From Myxococcus sp. (lineage in GTDB: Bacteria > Myxococcota > Myxococcia > Myxococcales > Myxococcaceae), in the NCBI GenBank assembly GCA_014879945.1, contig JACSRE010000293.1:1-53472 (forward strand): a stretch of DNA of 53,472 nt. Direction: 5' to 3'. Below the pieces are notes generated by a model. The model searched no databases and had not been told where the DNA came from. It saw nothing but the letters and a program-made list of their open reading frames with translations. Positions 33,065 to 44,156 of this stretch are shown in pieces. The first letter of the stretch is position 1. The number at the start of each line of letters is the position of its first letter. Position numbers and translations under genes: made by a program.

Positions 33065-33481
33065 ATGTCACGGCTCACCGCGGTCGCCTTCGCCCTCTCG
33101 TTCTGTCTCGGCCTCGCGTGCGGAATGCCCATGGTCACAGCCCCCGTCGCCGGCGCGGCGTGCACGCAAGAGAACGTCGGCGCGTGTGAGACGCCCACGC
33201 GGCTGCTGGCCTGCCTCGAGCAGAAGTGGGCGGTGGTGAGCGACTGCAAGGGCCCCGACGGCTGCCGGCGCAACGGCGACACGGTGGACTGCGACACGCG
33301 CGGCAACACCGTGGGCGACTTCTGCAGCAACGCCGGGCGCGTGCGCTGCGACCCGGACGGCGGCCTGCAGATTCTCCGCTGCAGCCCCGACTCAGGGCGC
33401 CTGGTCGTCGAGTTCTCGTGCCCGGCCACCGTCACGCAGACCCGCTGCGTCCTCGGAGACGCCGGGCTCACCTGCGAGTGA
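33065..33481 (+). CDS. Small Cys-rich lipoprotein
   Basis: This 138-residue protein starts at the ATG at 33065. The leader (LTAVAFALSFCLGLAC) ends in a lipobox, so it is probably membrane-anchored. The mature part has about 13 Cys, including CTQENVGACETPTRLLAC, GCRRNGDTVDCDTRG and RCVLGDAGLTC. Its short repeats around Cys resemble those in many myxobacterial surface lipoproteins. The function is unknown. The last 90 bases run antisense to the 3' end of the carH gene. Confidence 0.8.
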   Translation: MSRLTAVAFALSFCLGLACGMPMVTAPVAGAACTQENVGACETPTRLLACLEQKWAVVSDCKGPDGCRRNGDTVDCDTRGNTVGDFCSNAGRVRCDPDGGLQILRCSPDSGRLVVEFSCPATVTQTRCVLGDAGLTCE

Positions 33482-34390
33482 GCCTCTGCCCAGGAGCGCG
33501 TCCCACCCCTCGGGCGTGGTGACCAGCCGCACTCCGAGCTTCGCCGCCAGCTTCGCGTGCTGCTCCGCCCCGCGGCCGCCCACCACGAAGCTGGCGTCGT
33601 CGCCGCGCTCGCGGGTCAGCTCGGTGAGCGTCTGCTCGAAGTGCTCGGCGCCCTCGTCGTTGACGCTGCTGAGCGCCACCACCTGGGGCCGCACCACCCG
33701 CACCACGCGAGCCAGGTGCTCGGCCGGCGTGCGGGCGCCGAGGAACGTCACCCGCCACCCGGCGTGCCGAAAGCGCAGGGCCGCCGCCAACAACCCCAGC
33801 TCGTGGTCCTCGTCGGGGAAGCAGGCGCACACCACGTGCCGCTTCGAGCGCCGCGGGGCCTGATGGAGCAACGTCAACACGCACTGCTTCACGGCCTGGG
33901 TGACGAGGTGCTCCTCGGCGATGGTGAAGGTGCCCTGGTGCCAGCGCTCCCCCACCTCACGCTGCAGGGGCGCCAGCACCTCGTCCCACAGCGCCACCGG
34001 GGGCAGTGACGCCACCGCCTCGTCGAGCACCGCCTCGAGCGCCTGTTGGTCGAGCCGCTGGGCCGCGACGAGCATGTCGTGGCGCCACTTCTCGCTCTTG
34101 CCCGCCTTGGGCGCGCGGGGGATCGACCGCGACGACGCCGCGGCGTGGAGCTCCTTCACTTCTCGCTTGATGAGCGGCAGCAGCTTCACCGCCTCGGCGA
34201 TGCTGACGCCCTCTGACGTCACCTGCTTGAGGCGCTTGAGCACCGCCACGTCGGCCGGCGTGTAGGCCCGGTAGCCCGAGGGCGTGCGCTTCGGCTTGAG
34301 CACGCCGTAGCGGCGCTCCCACGCACGAATGAGGCCCTCGGACACGCCGCTCATCTCGGCCGCGACGTTGATTCGGTAGGTCCGCTTCAT
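33392..34390 (-). CDS. carH: CarH-type B12-dependent light-sensing transcriptional repressor
   Basis: This 332-residue protein starts at the ATG at 34390, sharing ATGA with the acyltransferase gene. Residues 4-75 are a MerR-type winged helix-turn-helix (INVAAEMSGVSEGLIRAWER, RRYGVLKPKRTPSGYRAY). Residues about 100-180 are the helical B12 cap with W150-x9-E160-H161, the W-x9-EH signature of photosensory CarH proteins. Residues about 185-310 are the Rossmann B12 domain with E194-x-H196-x-x-G199, His196 being the lower cobalt ligand; the W-to-H distance (46) equals that in Thermus CarH. In the dark, adenosylcobalamin should assemble tetramers that repress crt; light breaks them. It is the last gene of the operon it probably controls. 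Confidence 0.93.
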   Translation of the reverse strand: MKRTYRINVAAEMSGVSEGLIRAWERRYGVLKPKRTPSGYRAYTPADVAVLKRLKQVTSEGVSIAEAVKLLPLIKREVKELHAAASSRSIPRAPKAGKSEKWRHDMLVAAQRLDQQALEAVLDEAVASLPPVALWDEVLAPLQREVGERWHQGTFTIAEEHLVTQAVKQCVLTLLHQAPRRSKRHVVCACFPDEDHELGLLAAALRFRHAGWRVTFLGARTPAEHLARVVRVVRPQVVALSSVNDEGAEHFEQTLTELTRERGDDASFVVGGRGAEQHAKLAAKLGVRLVTTPEGWDALLGRGSLAGEPGVSEDAAGLRDGGRARELDDQAP

Positions 34391-35106
34391 TCCACGTGCG
34401 CCGCGGGGTGCCGCGGCTCCTCGGGGTTGGGGGCGGGCAGGCTGCGCACGGCGTCCCATCGCTCCTGAACGCTGGTGCGGCCGCGGATGCGCAGGGTGAA
34501 GCCTTCGGTGGACCGCGCCGACATCACCCGCTGGTACACCGCTTCGAGGCCCTCTGCATACGTCGAGAGGGCGCCTGGCGGGTGCGGCGCGCCGACCTCG
34601 ACCAACACGTCAGGGTGCTCGTGCTCGAGGAAGGCGTAGCGCAGCGCGATCGGCACGCACGGCGTCCTGGCGGTGCGCGCCAGCACCTCGACGCCACGTG
34701 AGAGCGCCCCGAGGGGACCCTGGCCGGGGCGGAGCTCTCCTTGAGGGAAGATGACGACGCAGGCGTTGGGGCGCGCGAGCACCGACTTCGCGTAGCGCAG
34801 CGTCTCGACGGCCGAGCGCGCGTCACCGCGCCGAATGCTGAACGCGCCGATGCGCGTGTGAAAGCGGTACTTCGCCAGGTTCTCTTCGGCCATCAGGGCG
34901 TAGGCGTCCCACCCGGCGAGCTTGCCGAGCTGGTGCGCGACGAAGCCGTCCCAGAAGCTCGAGTGGTTCAGGTAGGCCACCAGCCCCTGGCTCGCGGCCG
35001 GCAGCTCGCCCCGCACCCAGACGCCCCGAAACGCGCGGCGCACCTTGCGGCCGACGTACCAGTCGATGACCGAGGTGAAGAGGCCGCCTTTGTCATCGCG
35101 AATCAT
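34387..35106 (-). CDS. PlsC-like acyltransferase
   Basis: This 239-residue protein starts at the ATG at 35106. The acyltransferase signature is complete: AYLNHSSFWDGFVAH (H-x4-D catalytic pair) and VVIFPQGELRPGQG (substrate-binding EGxR-like loop). A hydrophobic patch near the start may associate with the membrane. The family transfers acyl chains from acyl-CoA or acyl-ACP to glycerophosphates or other alcohols. In this operon, directly after a glycosyltransferase and the hydratase, the likely job is acylation of a carotenoid glycoside, as in the myxobacton-type esters known from myxobacteria. It is coupled to both neighbours by ATGA. Confidence 0.85.
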   Translation of the reverse strand: MIRDDKGGLFTSVIDWYVGRKVRRAFRGVWVRGELPAASQGLVAYLNHSSFWDGFVAHQLGKLAGWDAYALMAEENLAKYRFHTRIGAFSIRRGDARSAVETLRYAKSVLARPNACVVIFPQGELRPGQGPLGALSRGVEVLARTARTPCVPIALRYAFLEHEHPDVLVEVGAPHPPGALSTYAEGLEAVYQRVMSARSTEGFTLRIRGRTSVQERWDAVRSLPAPNPEEPRHPAAHVE

Positions 35107-36254
35107 CGGGCCCTCCCCGGCGCCGGCAGCGCCACCATGCGCCCGCCCGCCTCGAGGGCGAAGCGACGGCCCCGCCACGAGACGGTGGAGCCCTGCCAGA
35201 GCGCGTTGACCCAACAGCCGAGCAACAGCAGCTCGGCCAGCAGCCACTCGAAGCGCAGGCCGCCGCGACGGTCTTGCCGGTTCGCGAGCGTGATGCGGAG
35301 CGCGACCAGGGCGCACAGCGCGACGGCGGCGGGAGGCGTCGCCACCACCGACGCGAGCACCATCAGCACCGGCGTGGGGGCGAACAGCAGCGGCACCGAG
35401 GGGAACAGCGCCGGGCGGTGCGCGCGGAGCACCTGCATCCACCGGGTGAAGCGGGCCACCACGGGGCCGCCGGCGACCTGGTCTGCCTGCGGCACCGCAG
35501 CGGTCGCCCTCGCCAGCGTGACCGGCAGGCCCTGCTGGTGGAGCACGTGGGCCAGCTCGAGGTCTTCGCCTATGCAGTCGGCCAGCTTCACCAGCTCCGC
35601 GGCCGCGGCCGGCGACAAGGCGATGGCCTTGCCGCAGATGGCGCGCGCGCCCGCGCTCATCACGTCGATGACCTCGAAGGCGTGGTGTGACTGCACCAGC
35701 AGGCCCCGCACCGCCTTGCCCGCCAGCGAGCTCGACACGCTGGGCCTGGGCGCCGCCGAAGAGAGCGCCGCGCCGGCGTGGAGCTCGTCGACCAGCGCCC
35801 CGATGAGCGCGGCGTCCACCCGCACGTCGGCGTCAACGCACAGCACCACCTGGTCCCCGGTCGAGGTCATCGCGGCGGGGCCCTCGTCGATGAGCGGCTC
35901 GTCGGCGCGCCGCGATGCCCGCGCGGCCTGGAGCGTGGCGAGGGCGTAGGCGAGGTGGCCCACCTTGCGGTTGCGAGACAGCGGGTCCGAGGCGAGCCAG
36001 CGCACGTTCGCCGACTCCAGCCTGGGCCGAAACGGCGACACCACCACGTGGGTCAGCGTGCCCGGGTAGTCGATGGGCGCGCCGAGGTTCTCGATCTCCA
36101 GCGGCGTCGGCGCGTCGACCGGCCGGAGCAACAGCACGTGAGGCCGCCGACGCGACCGTTGGGGCAACGCGGGGCGCGCGCGCCAGAGGCGGACCAGCGC
36201 CACCCCCGTGAAGCACGACGCCACCAGGGCCCAGAGCGTGACGAGCGCGGTCAT
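35103..36254 (-). CDS. GT21-like membrane glycosyltransferase
   Basis: This 383-residue protein starts at the ATG at 36254. An N-terminal membrane helix (VTLWALVASCFTGVALVRLW) and C-terminal helices surround a GT-A domain. It shows the D1-D2-D3-RxxRW series of ceramide-glucosyltransferase-like (GT21) enzymes: LLRPVDAPTP near the start, CVDADVRVD, CIGEDLELAH and VVARFTRWMQ. Known GT21 enzymes add glucose from UDP-glucose to lipid acceptors in the membrane. Here, directly downstream of the carotenoid hydratase, the acceptor is probably the new 1-hydroxyl of the carotenoid. ATGA overlaps link it to crtC and the acyltransferase. Confidence 0.82.
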   Translation of the reverse strand: MTALVTLWALVASCFTGVALVRLWRARPALPQRSRRRPHVLLLRPVDAPTPLEIENLGAPIDYPGTLTHVVVSPFRPRLESANVRWLASDPLSRNRKVGHLAYALATLQAARASRRADEPLIDEGPAAMTSTGDQVVLCVDADVRVDAALIGALVDELHAGAALSSAAPRPSVSSSLAGKAVRGLLVQSHHAFEVIDVMSAGARAICGKAIALSPAAAAELVKLADCIGEDLELAHVLHQQGLPVTLARATAAVPQADQVAGGPVVARFTRWMQVLRAHRPALFPSVPLLFAPTPVLMVLASVVATPPAAVALCALVALRITLANRQDRRGGLRFEWLLAELLLLGCWVNALWQGSTVSWRGRRFALEAGGRMVALPAPGRAR

Positions 36255-37153
36255 GGGGCACCTTCCTTCGAGTAGCGGGTCCTGAAGTTCGCCATCCACC
36301 GGATGGTGGGGCTGTGGAACCGGGCGAAGTCCGCGACCTCACCCAGCGACTGCGCGTCACCAGCGCCGGCCTCGAGGCGCGCGTAGAAGGGAGAAGACTC
36401 GAGGAGCACCGGCGCGTCGCCGACGGCGAGCCGCTCGGGCACCCGCAGGCCCCACGCGGTGCGCGACGAGGGCTGCGCGGGGGCCTCACCTCGTTCGACC
36501 TGCACCAGGCCGTCGGTCGCCCGCACGGTGAGGCCGGGGCTCCCGCCCCAGGGCTGGTAGCGGATCTCGGTGTGGCCAGGGCGATGGGTGCGCGCCCACT
36601 GCCAGCCCGAGAGGTCGCCGCCGAGCGCCACCTCGCCGTGGTTGCCGTCGTGGTAGCCGAGGCCGCGCACGTCGACGCCGTGGGTGGGCACCGTCACGCG
36701 GGCGTCGCCGCGCGCGCAGATGGGGCGCCAGTGGTGCGACAGGCCGTCGACGAGGCGCAGCTCGGGGCCCAGCGGCGCCACGGGCGTGAAGTGCAGGCTC
36801 GCCTCGGTCGGCGTGCCCCACGGCGTCGTCTTGTCCTTCACCTGCATCGTCATCGCCCCGTCGTGGTAGCGCAGCGACGACGCGCCGATGCGCAGGGTGC
36901 GGCCGTCTTCGGCGAGCGAGACGGCCTGGTACTCGGTCAGCACCCAGCACCGGCGCACCCCGTTCTCGTAGAGCGCGAAGTTCACCGCCGCGTGCTCGCG
37001 CGGCAGCCCGCCCTTCTTGAGCGAGGCCGAGTAGCGCGCCGAGAAGATGCTCCCCACCATGAAGATGAAGACCGCGCTCACCTCGCCCGCGGTGACGTCG
37101 GCGTAGTACCAGCGGTACGCCCCGCTCTTCGACGGCAGCTCGAGGCGGTTCAT
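36251..37153 (-). CDS. crtC: Carotenoid 1,2-hydratase (CrtC)
   Basis: This 300-residue protein starts at the ATG at 37153. The family adds water to the terminal 1,2 double bond of acyclic carotenoids to give 1-hydroxy derivatives. Readable CrtC features: GAYRWYYADVTAGEVSAVFI near the start, MVGSIFSARYSA, GAMTMQVKDKTTPWG in the middle, GLSHHWRPICARGDARV, and GLGYHDGNHGEVALGGDLSG, where Tyr, His and Asp are conserved, plus the C-terminal GLRVPER. It lies between crtD and the glycosyltransferase, matching its pathway position, and both junctions are ATGA overlaps. A frame extending upstream to 37477 is antisense to crtD and not used. Confidence 0.92.
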   Translation of the reverse strand: MNRLELPSKSGAYRWYYADVTAGEVSAVFIFMVGSIFSARYSASLKKGGLPREHAAVNFALYENGVRRCWVLTEYQAVSLAEDGRTLRIGASSLRYHDGAMTMQVKDKTTPWGTPTEASLHFTPVAPLGPELRLVDGLSHHWRPICARGDARVTVPTHGVDVRGLGYHDGNHGEVALGGDLSGWQWARTHRPGHTEIRYQPWGGSPGLTVRATDGLVQVERGEAPAQPSSRTAWGLRVPERLAVGDAPVLLESSPFYARLEAGAGDAQSLGEVADFARFHSPTIRWMANFRTRYSKEGAP

Positions 37154-38570
37154 GAGCGGCCTCCCAGGTGGGCGGTGGTGAGGCCCGCGGCGAAGCGGCC
37201 CGACAGCATCACCAGCGGCACGCCGCCGCCCGGGTGGGTGCCGCCGCCCGCGAAGAAGACGCCGGGGTCGGCGCCGCGCATCGACGGCCGGCGGAACGGG
37301 CCGAACTTGCCGTGAGGCAGGTAGCCGTAGATGGAGCCGCGCGGCGCACCCTTGTTCGCGAGATCGACGGGCGTGCGCTCGGCCACCAGCGACAGCGGCA
37401 CCCCGGCCAGCTCGGGCACCATCGCCAGGAGCCGCGCCCTCACGTGGGCCTCGAGGGTGCGCGCGTGCGTCTGCCACGCCGCCTCTTCGCCAGCGCGGAA
37501 CGGCGGCACGTTCACCATCGCGTACAGCCCGCTGCGGCCGGCCGGCGCCATCGAGGCGTCGGTGGCGGCCGGGTGGCAGAGGTGAATGGTGAGCTCGTCG
37601 GCCAGGCGCCCGGCCGCGAGCGCCGCGAACTCAGCGGGGTAGTCGGCCGCGAAGAGGATGGTGTGGTGCGGGAGCGAGAGGCGCGTGGGCGCCGCGAACA
37701 TCGCGACGTACCCCGACATGGTGAGCGGGTCGGCGCTGCGGTGCTGCAGCTCGAGCGGGTCGGCGTTCACCACCACCGCGTCGAACTCGCGCGCTGACAC
37801 CACGAAGCCCCTGCCCCGCTTCTCGTGCTGCACCTTCGCGCCCAGCACCACCTCGACGCCGTTGCGCTGCGCGGCGGTCGCGAGCGCGTCAACCAGGGCG
37901 CCCAGCCCACCGACGACGTGGTGCACGCCGAAGGCCCGCTCGATGTGGGCGATCATCGCGAACGCCGCGTTGGCTTCGTAGGGCGAGGCGCCGGCGTAGG
38001 TGGCGAAGCGGTTGACGAACTGCCGCAGGTGCGGCCCGCGGAAGTGCTGCTTCGCCAGCGCGTCGAGGGTCGAGAGCTTGAAGCCGGTCAGCAGCGTGCC
38101 CAGGCCGTTGCGCGCGGCGCGGGCCATGAAGCCCATCATCGTCTGGTACGGCGCCTCGAGGTAGGGCTGGCCGGCGGCGCGGTACACCTGCTCGGCGTCG
38201 GCGAAGAAGGCGCGCAGCCCCCCACCGTCGTCGGGGTGGAGCCGCGCGGCGCTCTCGGCGGCGCGGTCGAGGTCCTCCCAGCAGTGGAACTCGCGGCCGT
38301 CGGCGTAGCGGTAGTGCGTCTGGAGCGGCAGGCGCACCAGCTGGGGCATCAGGTCCTCGGCGCCGAGCTCGACGAAGGTGGCGCGCACGGTGTCGGGCAT
38401 CGTCATCACGGTGGGGCCGGTGTCGAACACCAGGCCGTCCACCGACACCGTGCCCGCCTTGCCGCCCAGCACGCCGGTCGCCTCGAAGAGCGTCACCTGG
38501 TGGCCCGTGCGCGCGAGCACGCCCGCGGCCGTGAGCCCGCCGATTCCACCTCCGATGACGGCCACGCGCT

Positions 38571-38574
<4 letters not shown>
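37150..38574 (-). CDS. crtD: CrtD-like carotenoid 3,4-desaturase (second CrtI-family enzyme)
   Basis: This 474-residue protein has a GTG start at 38574 overlapping the end of the HMG-CoA reductase gene (GTGA). The FAD motif is VAVIGGGIGGLTAAGVLART, followed by FEATGVLGGKAGT and VFDTGPTVMTMPD; the C-terminal carotenoid-desaturase end is FFAGGGTHPGGGVPLVMLSG. It is a distinct paralog of the crtI upstream. Its position directly before crtC suggests hydroxycarotenoid 3,4-desaturation (CrtD), but a second phytoene-desaturation step, as in myxobacterial CrtIa/CrtIb pairs, cannot be excluded. It is soluble or peripheral on the membrane. Confidence 0.85.
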
Positions 38575-39871
<1,297 letters not shown>

Positions 39872-39875
<4 letters not shown>

Positions 39876-40921
39876 GGCGCCCCCTTTCGTTCGACGAGCT
39901 GGAGCGGGACCTCGAGCGTGGGGATGACGACCGACGAGGCCGGCCCCGTCGCGCGCGGGGCGGGCGTCAGCAGCACCGAGAGGGCGCGGCGCAGCTTGCC
40001 GGCGAACGAGACGCGCGCGCGGGCCGAGAACACATCGTACCCCTGCGCCTCGATGGCCTCGAGGATGCCGCCGTAGACGGCCCCCATCAACCGCACCAGG
40101 TTCTTGCTGCCGAAGCCGCGCAGGTCAGGCACCCCGAAGAGGGCGCGCTGGTAGTAGGCGCGGGCGCGGGCGAGCTGAAACTGCATGAAGGCCACCCAGG
40201 CCTCACCCCCGCGGCGCCCGAGCGCCTCGCCGCGCGCCAGGGCCTGCAGGTCGGCCTCGCCGAGCCCGAACGCCGCCAGCTCGTCAGCCGCGAGGTAGAC
40301 GCGGCCCCGCAGCAGGTCCTCCTTCACGTCGCGCAAGATGTTGGTCAGCTGCATGCCGACGCCGAGGTCGGCCGCGAAGGGCAGGCACCGCGGGTCGGCG
40401 TGGCCCAGCACCGGCGTCATCATCTCGCCCACCACGCCCGCGACCCGGTAGCAGTAGAGGTGGAGCTCGTCGAAGGTCGCATAGCGCGACCTGGTGAGGT
40501 CCATCTCCATGCCCGAGATGAGCTCCTGGAAGGGCCGCTCGGGAATGGCGTAGCGCTCCACGGTGTCGCGGAAGGCGGCCACCTCGGCCTCGTGCCAGGG
40601 CAGCGCCTTCCACACCGTCGCCGACGAGGGTGCGCCGTAGAGCGACGACACCGCCTGCCGCGCGAGCGCGAGCCGGTCGGCCAGCTGCGACGGCAGGGCC
40701 ACCGGCGCGGCGACCGACCCATCCCCCTGGTTGTCACCGTCGACGAGGTCGTCGAGGCGGCGGCAGAAGGCGTAGAGCGCGAACGCGCCGCGGCGGCGGG
40801 CGCCGAAGAGGGCCACGCTGGAGAAGAAGAACGACTTCGCGTGAAAACGCGTGAGCGCCCTGGCGCGCTGGTAGCCCTCGGCCAGCAGGGGCGACGACGT
40901 CATCGCGAGCGCGTTCGTCAT
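39872..40921 (-). CDS. crtB: Phytoene synthase
   Basis: This 349-residue protein condenses two geranylgeranyl diphosphate molecules to phytoene. Both Asp-rich Mg-diphosphate motifs are present, FCRRLDDLVDGD and LTNILRDVKEDLLRGRVYL, together with ELISGMEMDLTRSRYATFDEL and YRVAGVVGEMM, typical of phytoene/squalene synthases. Between crtI and mvaA it shares ATGA with each neighbour. Squalene synthase would be the alternative, but the carotenoid context and the DxxxD pattern favour CrtB. Confidence 0.93.
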
Positions 40922-42471
40922 GGCGCCACCTCGCGCGCGGCGGCCAGCGAGGGCTCCTTCACCTCGGGGCTCACCCGCGCCGTGCGCTGCGCCGGCCCGG
41001 GCTGCGCGCGCTCACCGATGGCCTGCACGCAGAGCTCGGCCGAGATCATCACCGTCGGCACGCCGGTGCCCGGCTGCACCGAGGCGCCGCAGTAGAAGAG
41101 GTTGGTGATGCGGTCGTCCCACACCTTCGGGCGGAAGGGGCCGATCTGGAACATGTTCTGGGCGAGGCCGAAGTTCGAGCCGCGCTCGAGGTTGAGCTCG
41201 CGCTCCCAGTCGTCGGGCGTGACGACGCGCTCCACCTCGATGTCCGCCTCGAGCGAGCCCAGGCCGAGCGCCGCCAGCCGCGCGAACACCTTCGCGCGCA
41301 CCTTCGGGCCTTCGACCTTCCAGTCGAGGTGCGGGGCGCGGTGGGGCACGGGCACCAGCACGTAGAGGGCGTCTTTGCCTTCCGGCGCCATCGACGGGTC
41401 GAGGTGGGCGGGGGCGTTGACGTAGAAGCTCGGCGCCTCGGGCACCTTCAGCGCCTCGAAGATGTCGCGGAAGCTGCCCTCGAAGTCACCGCCGAAGAAG
41501 ATGTTGTGGTGCAGCAGCTCGTCGTAGCGGCGCTTGAGGCCGAGGTAGAGCATGTAGCCCGACGAGGTGTAGCGCTTCTGCTCGAGCTCGGGGTGCGACG
41601 ACACCGCGGGGTCGATGAGGTGCTTCTGGGCCCACGGGTAGTCGGCGTTGCACACCACCACGTCGGCGCGCTCGATGGAGCCGTCGGCCAGCTCGACGCC
41701 CGTGGCGACGCCGCCCTCGAGCACCACCCGCTTCACCGCCTGGCCGTAGTGGAGGCCCACCTCGAGCTCGCCACAGACCTTCTCGAGCGCGCGGGGAATC
41801 GCGCCCATGCCGCCCATCGGGTACCAGATGCCGACGACCAGCTCGGTGTACGGCAGCAGCGAGAACACCGCCGGCGCCTCGTAGGGCGACACGCCCAGGT
41901 ACATCGTCTGGAACGACATCGCCTGGCGCAGCCGCTCGTCATGGAAGGACTTCGAGACCTGCGCGTAGAGCTTCTGGTGCGCGCCGATGCGCAGCGCGTG
42001 CGGCAGGTTCGACGGCGAGAGGAACTGGGCGAGCGAGTCGAAGTGCTTGCCGACGAAGCGCTCCATCGAGGTGTCGTGGCGGTCGCGCCCCTTTGCGAGG
42101 AAGCGCAGGTAGCGCTCGAAGCTGCCGGGCTCGAGGCGCTCGAGCTCGTCGCGCATCTTCGTCAGCTCGGTGCTGAGCGTGAGGGTGGAGTCGTCGTGAA
42201 AGGTGACGCGGTAGTTGGGGTCGCAGCGCACCAGCGTGAGGTAGTCGCTGAGGCGGCGGCCCACCGACGCGAAGGCCTGCTCGAAGACGAAGGGCATCAG
42301 CATGATGGTGGGCCCCAGGTCCCACCGGAAGCCCCCGGCCTCGACGCGGCCGCAGCGCCCACCCGGCACGGCCTGCTTTTCGAACACGTCCACCTGCCAG
42401 CCCTGGTGGGCGAGCTTCATGGCCGCGGTCAGCCCGCCGACGCCGGCGCCGATGACGATGGCGCGGCTCAA
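40918..42471 (-). CDS. crtI: Phytoene desaturase (CrtI type)
   Basis: This 517-residue protein starts at a TTG at 42471, which shares TTGA with the end of crtE; GGAGGG lies 5 bases upstream. It introduces double bonds into phytoene using FAD and needs no plastid-type isomerase. Motifs: AIVIGAGVGGLTAAMKLAHQG (FAD), KQAVPGGRCGR, FRWDLGPTIMLMP, and the C-terminal FYCGASVQPGTGVPTVMIS, which is the bacterial phytoene dehydrogenase signature. A longer frame upstream is antisense or out of frame with crtE and was not used. Product range (neurosporene, lycopene or more) cannot be read from sequence. Confidence 0.93.
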   Translation of the reverse strand: MSRAIVIGAGVGGLTAAMKLAHQGWQVDVFEKQAVPGGRCGRVEAGGFRWDLGPTIMLMPFVFEQAFASVGRRLSDYLTLVRCDPNYRVTFHDDSTLTLSTELTKMRDELERLEPGSFERYLRFLAKGRDRHDTSMERFVGKHFDSLAQFLSPSNLPHALRIGAHQKLYAQVSKSFHDERLRQAMSFQTMYLGVSPYEAPAVFSLLPYTELVVGIWYPMGGMGAIPRALEKVCGELEVGLHYGQAVKRVVLEGGVATGVELADGSIERADVVVCNADYPWAQKHLIDPAVSSHPELEQKRYTSSGYMLYLGLKRRYDELLHHNIFFGGDFEGSFRDIFEALKVPEAPSFYVNAPAHLDPSMAPEGKDALYVLVPVPHRAPHLDWKVEGPKVRAKVFARLAALGLGSLEADIEVERVVTPDDWERELNLERGSNFGLAQNMFQIGPFRPKVWDDRITNLFYCGASVQPGTGVPTVMISAELCVQAIGERAQPGPAQRTARVSPEVKEPSLAAAREVAP

Positions 42472-43538
42472 CTGGCCCTCCGGGTCATGCGGGCCATCAG
42501 GCCGTCGAGCCCCTCCCGCGCGCCCGAGCCCGAGGGGAGCTGCTCGAGCACTCGCCGGGCCGCGCGGGTGCTGCGGTCGATGAGGCGCTGGGTGGCGTCG
42601 CGCCCGCCCCACCGCGTCACCTCGGCACGGGCGGCCTCGAGCGCCTTCGCGTCGCGCGCCTCGCCGTGCCACAGCTGCTCGAGGCGCGCGCGCCCCGCGT
42701 CGTCCGCGCGCGTCCAGGCGGCCAACACCGGGAAGGTGCGCTTGCCCTCGATGAAGTCACCGCCGCCGGCCTTGCCAGCGATGGCGTCGTCACCGAACAA
42801 CCCGATGAGGTCGTCGCGGAGCTGAAAGGCCAGGCCCGCGGCCCGCCCCACCCGCTCGAGCTGATCGAGGAGCGGCTGCGCGGCCCCACCGAGCATCGCG
42901 CCCGCCACCAGGGGCGCCACGAAGCCGTACCGGGCCGTCTTGAGGTTGGCCACCTTGAGCGTCTGGAAGATGGTGACGTCGCGCAGGTGGGTGCGGGCGA
43001 GGTCGAGGTCGAGGTACTGGCCGACCGCGGTGTGGCGGCAGATGCCCATCATGTACCGGGTCGCGGCGGCGGCGTTCGGCAGGCCCGACGACAGCATCAC
43101 CTCGACGGCGCGCGCGTAGACGTAGTCGCCCACCACCACCGCCAGGTCTTCGCCCACCCGACCGTCGGACAGCGTGCGGTGGAGCGCGGGCCCACCCCGC
43201 CGGGTGACGGCGCGATCGGCCACGTCATCGTGAATCAACATGAAGGTGTGGAGCAGCTCGAGGCCCGCGGCGAACGCCCCGACGCCCTCGGGCACCCCGC
43301 GCTGCAGCTCATTCGAGGCCAGGGCCCAGCCCGTCACCAGCAGCGTCGGTCGAACGCGCTTGGCGGGCCGCAGCGCGTAGCTGCGCAGCTCCACCATGGC
43401 CCGCGCCCAGCGGGGGTCCATGCCCACTTCGTCCGGCAGCACCAGCAGCTCGGCCAGCGAGCGCTCCAGCTCGAGCTGGAACGAGGCCAGAGCCGCTTCG
43501 GCGCGCATGGGAACACTCGATGTCGCGATCGTGGTCAT
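42468..43538 (-). CDS. crtE: Geranylgeranyl diphosphate synthase
   Basis: This 356-residue protein starts at the ATG at 43538 (MTTIATSSVP), with GGAGGAG 6 bases upstream. It extends farnesyl to geranylgeranyl diphosphate. First Asp-rich motif FMLIHDDVADRA; second motif QLRDDLIGLFGDD; other marks LRPAKRVRPTLL and HTAVGQYLDLDLA. The residue before the first motif and the short insertion set product length; these fit a C20 enzyme. It is the first gene of the carotenoid operon, so it lies next to the promoter and operator. Confidence 0.93.
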   Translation of the reverse strand: MTTIATSSVPMRAEAALASFQLELERSLAELLVLPDEVGMDPRWARAMVELRSYALRPAKRVRPTLLVTGWALASNELQRGVPEGVGAFAAGLELLHTFMLIHDDVADRAVTRRGGPALHRTLSDGRVGEDLAVVVGDYVYARAVEVMLSSGLPNAAAATRYMMGICRHTAVGQYLDLDLARTHLRDVTIFQTLKVANLKTARYGFVAPLVAGAMLGGAAQPLLDQLERVGRAAGLAFQLRDDLIGLFGDDAIAGKAGGGDFIEGKRTFPVLAAWTRADDAGRARLEQLWHGEARDAKALEAARAEVTRWGGRDATQRLIDRSTRAARRVLEQLPSGSGAREGLDGLMARMTRRAS

Positions 43539-43587
43539 CGGTTTCTCCTCCTGCCTGTTGGATGCGCCCGCCCCGAAAACGTTGCAG

Positions 43588-43620
43588 GGTTTGTTTAACG
43601 TTTGTACGAATCTTGTGCAA
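43588..43620 (-). promoter_or_regulatory. Candidate CarH operator: three tandem 11-base repeats upstream of crtE
   Basis: Reading the minus strand from 43620, three adjacent 11-base units are TTGCACAAGAT, TCGTACAAACG and TTAAACAAACC, all with T at position 1 and ACAA at positions 5-8. Thermus CarH is known to bind three 11-bp direct repeats with an nTnnACAn-type core, so the match in count, period and core is good. The site is 50-82 bases upstream of the crtE ATG in an unusually AT-rich island, and it overlaps the ATG of the divergent gene. No convincing -10/-35 pair could be fixed. Confidence 0.75.
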
Positions 43621-44156
43621 TGCCGACCCTGCTCCGCCACGCCCCGGGCCTGCTCGTGCTGGTGATGACGGCGCAGGCCCCGACGAACGCCGCCGACGGA
43701 GGTGTCGCGATGACTGCCACGCTCGAGACTTCAAATGGAAAGCCGGTGCGGCTGAGTGCGCTCTGGTCGAAGCCGACGGTCCTCTTCTACGAGGACCGCG
43801 ACTCCACGGCGCTCAATCAGCACGTCAAAGACGCGCTCTCGGAGCGGGGGCGGCGAGAGGGGCTGCAGGACAAGGTGGCGGTGGTGGCGGTGGCCAACGT
43901 GGCCCCGTGGAACTGGTTTCCCGCGCGCAACTTCGTGCTCACCGCGGTCAGGGACATCGAGAAGCAGGTCAACGTGCCCGTCTACCTCGACTTCACCGGC
44001 GAGCTGAGCGGCTCTCCGTGGAACCTGCCGCCCAGGACGTCGACGGTGATGGTGATGGACGAGCAAGGCAGGCCCGTGTGGCGGGCCCAGGGACGACTGT
44101 CACCCGCGAAGCTGGAGGAGCTCTTCAAGGCGCTCGACCAGCTCATCGTTCACTGA
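43620..44156 (+). CDS. Exported thioredoxin-fold-like protein without Cys pair (YtfJ-like)
   Basis: The frame has 178 residues from the ATG at 43620, starting with a plausible signal peptide (LLRHAPGLLVLVMTAQAPT). A second ATG at 43710 (MTATLETSNG) has a very good ribosome site (GGAGGT 7 bases upstream) and would give a cytoplasmic 148-residue protein. The domain SNGKPVRLSALWSKPTVLFY, VAVVAVANVAPWNWFPAR and LPPRTSTVMVMDEQGRPVWR has the course of a peroxiredoxin/thioredoxin fold, but there is no CxxC. Function is unknown. It diverges from crtE and shares its control region, so light regulation is possible. Confidence 0.7.
   Translation: MPTLLRHAPGLLVLVMTAQAPTNAADGGVAMTATLETSNGKPVRLSALWSKPTVLFYEDRDSTALNQHVKDALSERGRREGLQDKVAVVAVANVAPWNWFPARNFVLTAVRDIEKQVNVPVYLDFTGELSGSPWNLPPRTSTVMVMDEQGRPVWRAQGRLSPAKLEELFKALDQLIVH

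Follow-up and report, generated by a model that had tools for sequence, protein, structure and literature searches.

Upstream of crtE in the window (the whole stretch of 53,472 nucleotides analysed here) lies a block of AT-rich DNA that runs into the start of a divergently transcribed gene. The question raised by this locus is whether the block is an operator for CarH, the adenosylcobalamin (AdoCbl)-dependent photoreceptor and repressor encoded at the end of the crtE operon. The first-pass annotation had proposed such an operator, describing three tandem 11-bp ACAA repeats in the only AT-rich island for many kilobases. These three 11-mers are found, letter for letter, at 43620-43588 on the minus strand, and no equally AT-rich 33-bp stretch exists elsewhere in the 53-kb window. 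The tandem 11-bp spacing was thus borne out but the ACAA motif was not: the repeated motif is TnnACA, which sets the CarH register 3 bp off, and the count of three had to be amended by a fourth, weak and degenerate repeat on their 3' side.

In the nnnnTnnACAn register published for CarH (PMC9304148), the array reads GCATTGCACAA-GATTCGTACAA-ACGTTAAACAA-ACCCTGCAACG (43623-43580, minus strand), a DR-dr-DR-dr layout where DR denotes a full and dr an incomplete motif. Repeat 1 (43613-43623) is a DR in which the divergent gene has its start codon (43620-43622, plus strand), while in repeat 2 (43602-43612), a dr, the motif T is replaced by C. Repeat 3 (43591-43601) is again a DR, so the full motif is present in two of the four repeats, and repeat 4 (43580-43590), a degenerate dr, overlaps a conserved TGCAAC element. 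Where repeat 2 has C, all five other genus members have T, the counterpart of this repeat in relatives being TATACA or TCTACA. The array lies 42 bp upstream of the crtE start codon. It was missing from the listing of a general repeat finder because only the TnnACA positions repeat.

The operon that begins at crtE does end in carH, as had been claimed, and comprises nine minus-strand genes with 4-bp overlaps between neighbours. After crtE (geranylgeranyl diphosphate synthase; 42468-43538), which has the Shine-Dalgarno sequence aggaggag upstream of its ATG, the block from crtI to an acyltransferase gene spans 34387-42471 and contains crtI (42471-40918), crtB (40921-39872), an HMG-CoA reductase gene (39875-38571), a second crtI/crtD-type desaturase gene (38574-37150), a probable crtC without a Pfam match (37153-36251), a glycosyltransferase gene (36254-35103) and the acyltransferase gene (35106-34387). 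With crtB on one side and the second desaturase gene on the other, the HMG-CoA reductase gene is an internal member of the operon, and its presence within a crt cluster has also been reported for some Cystobacterineae (PMC9304148).

The final gene, carH (33392-34390), encodes a protein with a MerR DNA-binding domain (Pfam MerR_1, 1.3e-16), in which the RxWERRY recognition helix reads RAWERRY, and a B12-binding domain (Pfam B12-binding, 1.1e-13), in which the D/ExHxxG motif reads EDHELG. The Wx9EH motif that distinguishes CarH from CarA is intact (WHQGTFTIAEEH). No other CarH/CarA homologue was found in the genome, and each crtE-bearing genome of the same genus likewise returned a single match. 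The protein is 332 residues long compared to ~300 in other genus members, owing to a C-terminal extension of ~30 residues (33392-33500, minus strand). A search for carQRS through the NrsF/DUF1109 anti-sigma family revealed ECF-NrsF pairs in which no CarS-like third gene was seen; the same search returned no recognisable carQRS in positive-control relatives either.

The repeats are conserved. Six other genomes of the genus were sampled, five of them with crtE, and phased repeats occupy the same place in all six genus crtE loci, the window included, with three perfect motifs in two of them. In the correct register 65 of the 72 motif cells of these six loci are filled. The remaining registers between -1 and +10 give 5 to 35 of 72, and 56 of 72 are filled upon a shift by one whole repeat. 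Conservation is higher in the motif columns than in the rest of the array, though only marginally (Mann-Whitney p = 0.052). Beyond the genus, the array was found upstream of crtE in ~30 further Myxococcaceae loci and is present in nearly every crt operon of the family, and at the Myxococcus xanthus locus (L105) the same scan returned the published DR1-dr2-DR3-DR4. Loss of the repeat at crtE in close relatives, which the first-pass annotation had named as grounds for abandoning its proposal, is therefore not what is seen.

The repeats also track the repressor. They are present in 24 of 25 genomes with CarH or CarA and in one of four without (one-sided Fisher p = 0.004, uncorrected for relatedness). 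Where a genome has two crtE-like genes, repeats are found at the one linked to carH (score 15-16 of 16) and not at the unlinked one, and in three genomes with crtE but no CarH (G010, G023 and G036) the repeats are absent or decayed. The locus with decayed repeats in G023 (L009/L097), a 100% complete genome, looks like a case of operator decay after repressor loss. There are two exceptions. G018 has good repeats and no CarH was found, in an assembly that is 92% complete, is split into 910 contigs and has a crtE contig that ends early; G008 has CarH and only two full repeats in tandem.

In a genome-wide scan the pattern TNNACA-N5-TNNACA-N5-TNNACA, with at most one mismatch, has a single match on the two strands of the 7.72-Mb genome, namely this array; by this measure the genome holds no second CarH operator. 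The reversed-pattern control had no genome matches, while ~0.9 matches to the phased motif would be expected anywhere in the genome from base composition. Dinucleotide shuffling of the intergenic region (171 bp) reached the observed score of 11/12 in 2 of 5000 cases, and mononucleotide shuffling of the AT-rich island did so in 0.02%. Across the genus genomes, zero-mismatch phased matches occur only at crtE and one-mismatch matches are scattered elsewhere.

Tandem 11-bp nnnnTnnACAn repeats, a location before crtE, conservation and co-occurrence with CarH are among the features by which a CarH operator can be recognised, and these are present here. The genome-unique match, the crtE/carH context, the conservation and the tracking of CarH lend strong support to the interpretation first proposed for this site, as do the diagnostic Wx9EH and B12 motifs of the operon's own CarH. 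Counting against it are the incomplete repeats 2 and 4 and the two exceptional genomes, G018 and G008. Thus, on sequence grounds, 43580-43623 is very probably the operator of the CarH encoded at the operon end.

Could the same block instead be an AT-rich sigma-70 promoter shared by crtE and its divergent neighbour, with phasing that stems from promoter hexamers rather than an operator? TTGACA- and TATACA-like boxes do fit TnnACA, the block lies between two divergent starts, and the pairs TTGCAC-N17-TAAACA and TTGCAG-N17-TACGAA can be drawn in it. However, no site on either strand of the region reached the threshold for a sigma-70 consensus promoter (at least 9/12), genus and family alike retain three to four phased repeats, and the repeats are gone at the crtE genes of the three CarH-less genomes, which still need a promoter. 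This explanation is very unlikely. Even less credible, to the point of being extremely improbable, is a B12-independent repressor of the CarA type that binds the site instead of or together with CarH. In M. xanthus CarA and CarH do have a common operator (PMC9304148, PMC8156234), and in two relatives proteins that lack the Trp of Wx9EH and have no CarH partner lie beside a repeat-bearing crtE (L206 in G030, which is CarA-type, and L207 in G026, which is truncated in the frame read and so only probably CarA-type). Against this, the sole CarH/CarA homologue found in the window genome bears the CarH-only Wx9EH, and the inverted repeats described for CarA at M. xanthus P_crt are not found here; no inverted repeat of at least 8 bp occurs in 43530-43660.

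The crtE promoter is less certain than the operator. Adjoining the repeats is a pair of elements, TGCAAC-N15-GCATCCAA (43558-43586, minus strand), that does not conform to the sigma-70 consensus; an ECF-type sigma factor may recognise it. In full the pair is TG(C/A)AAC-N15-GCATC(C/T)(A/G)A. Eight loci from three genera share its 15-nt spacing despite divergent spacer sequences, and in one of these, G002, which has TGAAAC instead of TGCAAC, a 1-bp deletion moves the pair relative to the repeats and leaves the spacing intact. TGCAAC-N15-GCATCYRA is accordingly a better crtE promoter candidate than any sigma-70 site, and it appears more ECF-type-like than sigma-70-like. The pair also occurs, as TGCAAC-N15-GCATCNNA, upstream of crtE and also upstream of ribA (GTP cyclohydrolase II) in each of the seven genus genomes (43558-43586, minus strand, in the window; L084, L083, L079, L088, L074, L090 and L076). 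It is possible that crtE and ribA share an alternative-sigma promoter, although this is suggestive only and the ribA matches could be due to chance, as controls give about one match per genome. Matches upstream of the organic-hydroperoxide resistance (Ohr) region were set aside, as they overlap a likely OhrR box.

These features raise the possibility that the CarH operator mainly gates an ECF-sigma promoter, such that crtE is under the joint control of darkness, through CarH, and a stress sigma factor. This would refine the CarH-operator explanation and is not exclusive of it. The constant 15-nt spacing, kept in G002 despite the deletion and the lost divergent gene, the absence of a sigma-70 consensus promoter and the recurrence of the pair at ribA argue in its favour. 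By contrast, TGCAAC-N15-GCATC lies upstream of none of the 30 ECF genes of the genome that were searched for autoregulation, M. xanthus P_crt is sigma-A dependent (PMC8156234), and the ribA matches are open to the chance explanation given above. We regard joint gating as possible but doubtful.

The gene on the other side of the array (43620-44156, plus strand) encodes an exported YtfJ-like protein. Its match to the YtfJ family (PF09695) is below the curated cut-off (E = 0.0037); all 18 homologues examined match the family, the best at 1.9e-12. The product is predicted to adopt a thioredoxin-like fold similar to that of ResA, and the window protein contains no cysteines. Almost every Myxococcaceae locus examined has this gene next to crtE. 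Five genus members retain it, and in these the CAT of repeat 1 serves as the start codon, no Shine-Dalgarno sequence precedes the start and the N-terminus resembles a signal peptide; the mRNA is probably leaderless. Because the gene starts within repeat 1 and lacks a Shine-Dalgarno sequence, its promoter must overlap the CarH operator. The candidate promoter, TTGCAG-N17-TACGAA (43582-43610, plus strand), is weak and below the consensus threshold, its second box being TATAGA or TATAGC in relatives. In G002 the divergent gene has been lost and three perfect repeats are kept, indicating that the operator is retained for crtE and not for the divergent gene alone.

How might the site work? By analogy with known CarH systems (PMC8156234, PMC9304148), we infer CarH binding here, its light response, its oligomeric state and the promoter elements it covers. 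In the dark, AdoCbl-bound CarH would assemble on the array with one MerR-type DNA-binding domain per 11-bp repeat and would cover the crtE start region, keeping the crtE-carH operon off. In the light, AdoCbl would be split and the CarH oligomer would fall apart, allowing transcription of the operon, carH included. That crtE is repressed by steric block we can only infer, because the identity of its promoter is uncertain. The YtfJ-like gene would be shut off by the same bound CarH, as it starts inside repeat 1. In a more far-reaching scheme, a single CarH operator would act on two divergent transcripts: the crt operon would be read from an ECF-type, non-sigma-70 promoter, and the other transcript would be a leaderless mRNA for the YtfJ-like protein, with its start codon within the operator. 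This combined scheme is tentative and, as a whole, rather unlikely. If it is true, the YtfJ-like protein would be a newcomer to the B12/light regulon, and a single promoter would combine CarH repression with an alternative sigma factor. No mention of the divergent gene as a CarH target was found in open-licence full texts.

The array has close counterparts. Perez-Castano et al. (2022) described P_crt CarH operators across Myxococcales and footprinted those of Cystobacter, Sorangium and Haliangium; direct-repeat operators from other myxobacteria bound CarH in vitro, and some of the published operators have no more than one or two full repeats (PMC9304148). Thus, the novelty implied by the first-pass annotation for a myxobacterial operator of this kind is not supported. 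In the Cystobacterineae (M. xanthus, Cystobacter fuscus), P_crt likewise precedes crtE, the crt operon is syntenic and ends in carH, and the operator consists of tandem 11-bp nnnnTnnACAn repeats, full and incomplete ones mixed (PMC9304148). However, those operators usually have three DR and two dr with the -35 element TTGACA inside DR4 (PMC9304148), whereas the array described here has two DR, two dr and no TTGACA and, unlike theirs, runs into the divergent gene's start codon. The arrangement in Sorangium cellulosum (P_crtSc1/P_crtSc2) is similar in that one CarH site is located between divergent genes, is proposed to control both, and in that binding occurs even at operators that have few full repeats; there both divergent genes are carotenogenic or carH (PMC9304148), while here the second encodes a YtfJ-like protein. 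The Thermus thermophilus operator also has three core 11-bp direct repeats, each bound by one MerR domain (PMC8156234, PMC9304148). Here, by comparison, the motif T is missing from the middle one of the three, and a degenerate fourth repeat is added.

The operator is therefore ordinary in kind, as direct-repeat CarH operators of myxobacteria were published in 2022 (PMC9304148), and what remains of interest is its genus-specific layout. The additions to what is known are the divergent start codon within the operator and the non-sigma-70 candidate promoter of crtE. With its short and clearly phased sites, the array lends itself to binding tests. The locus extends the well-characterised B12- and light-dependent control of carotenoids to a genus of the Myxococcaceae represented here by metagenome assemblies alone, in which CarH but no CarA was found, and the conserved neighbour divergent from crtE across the family is a likely uncharted target of CarH.
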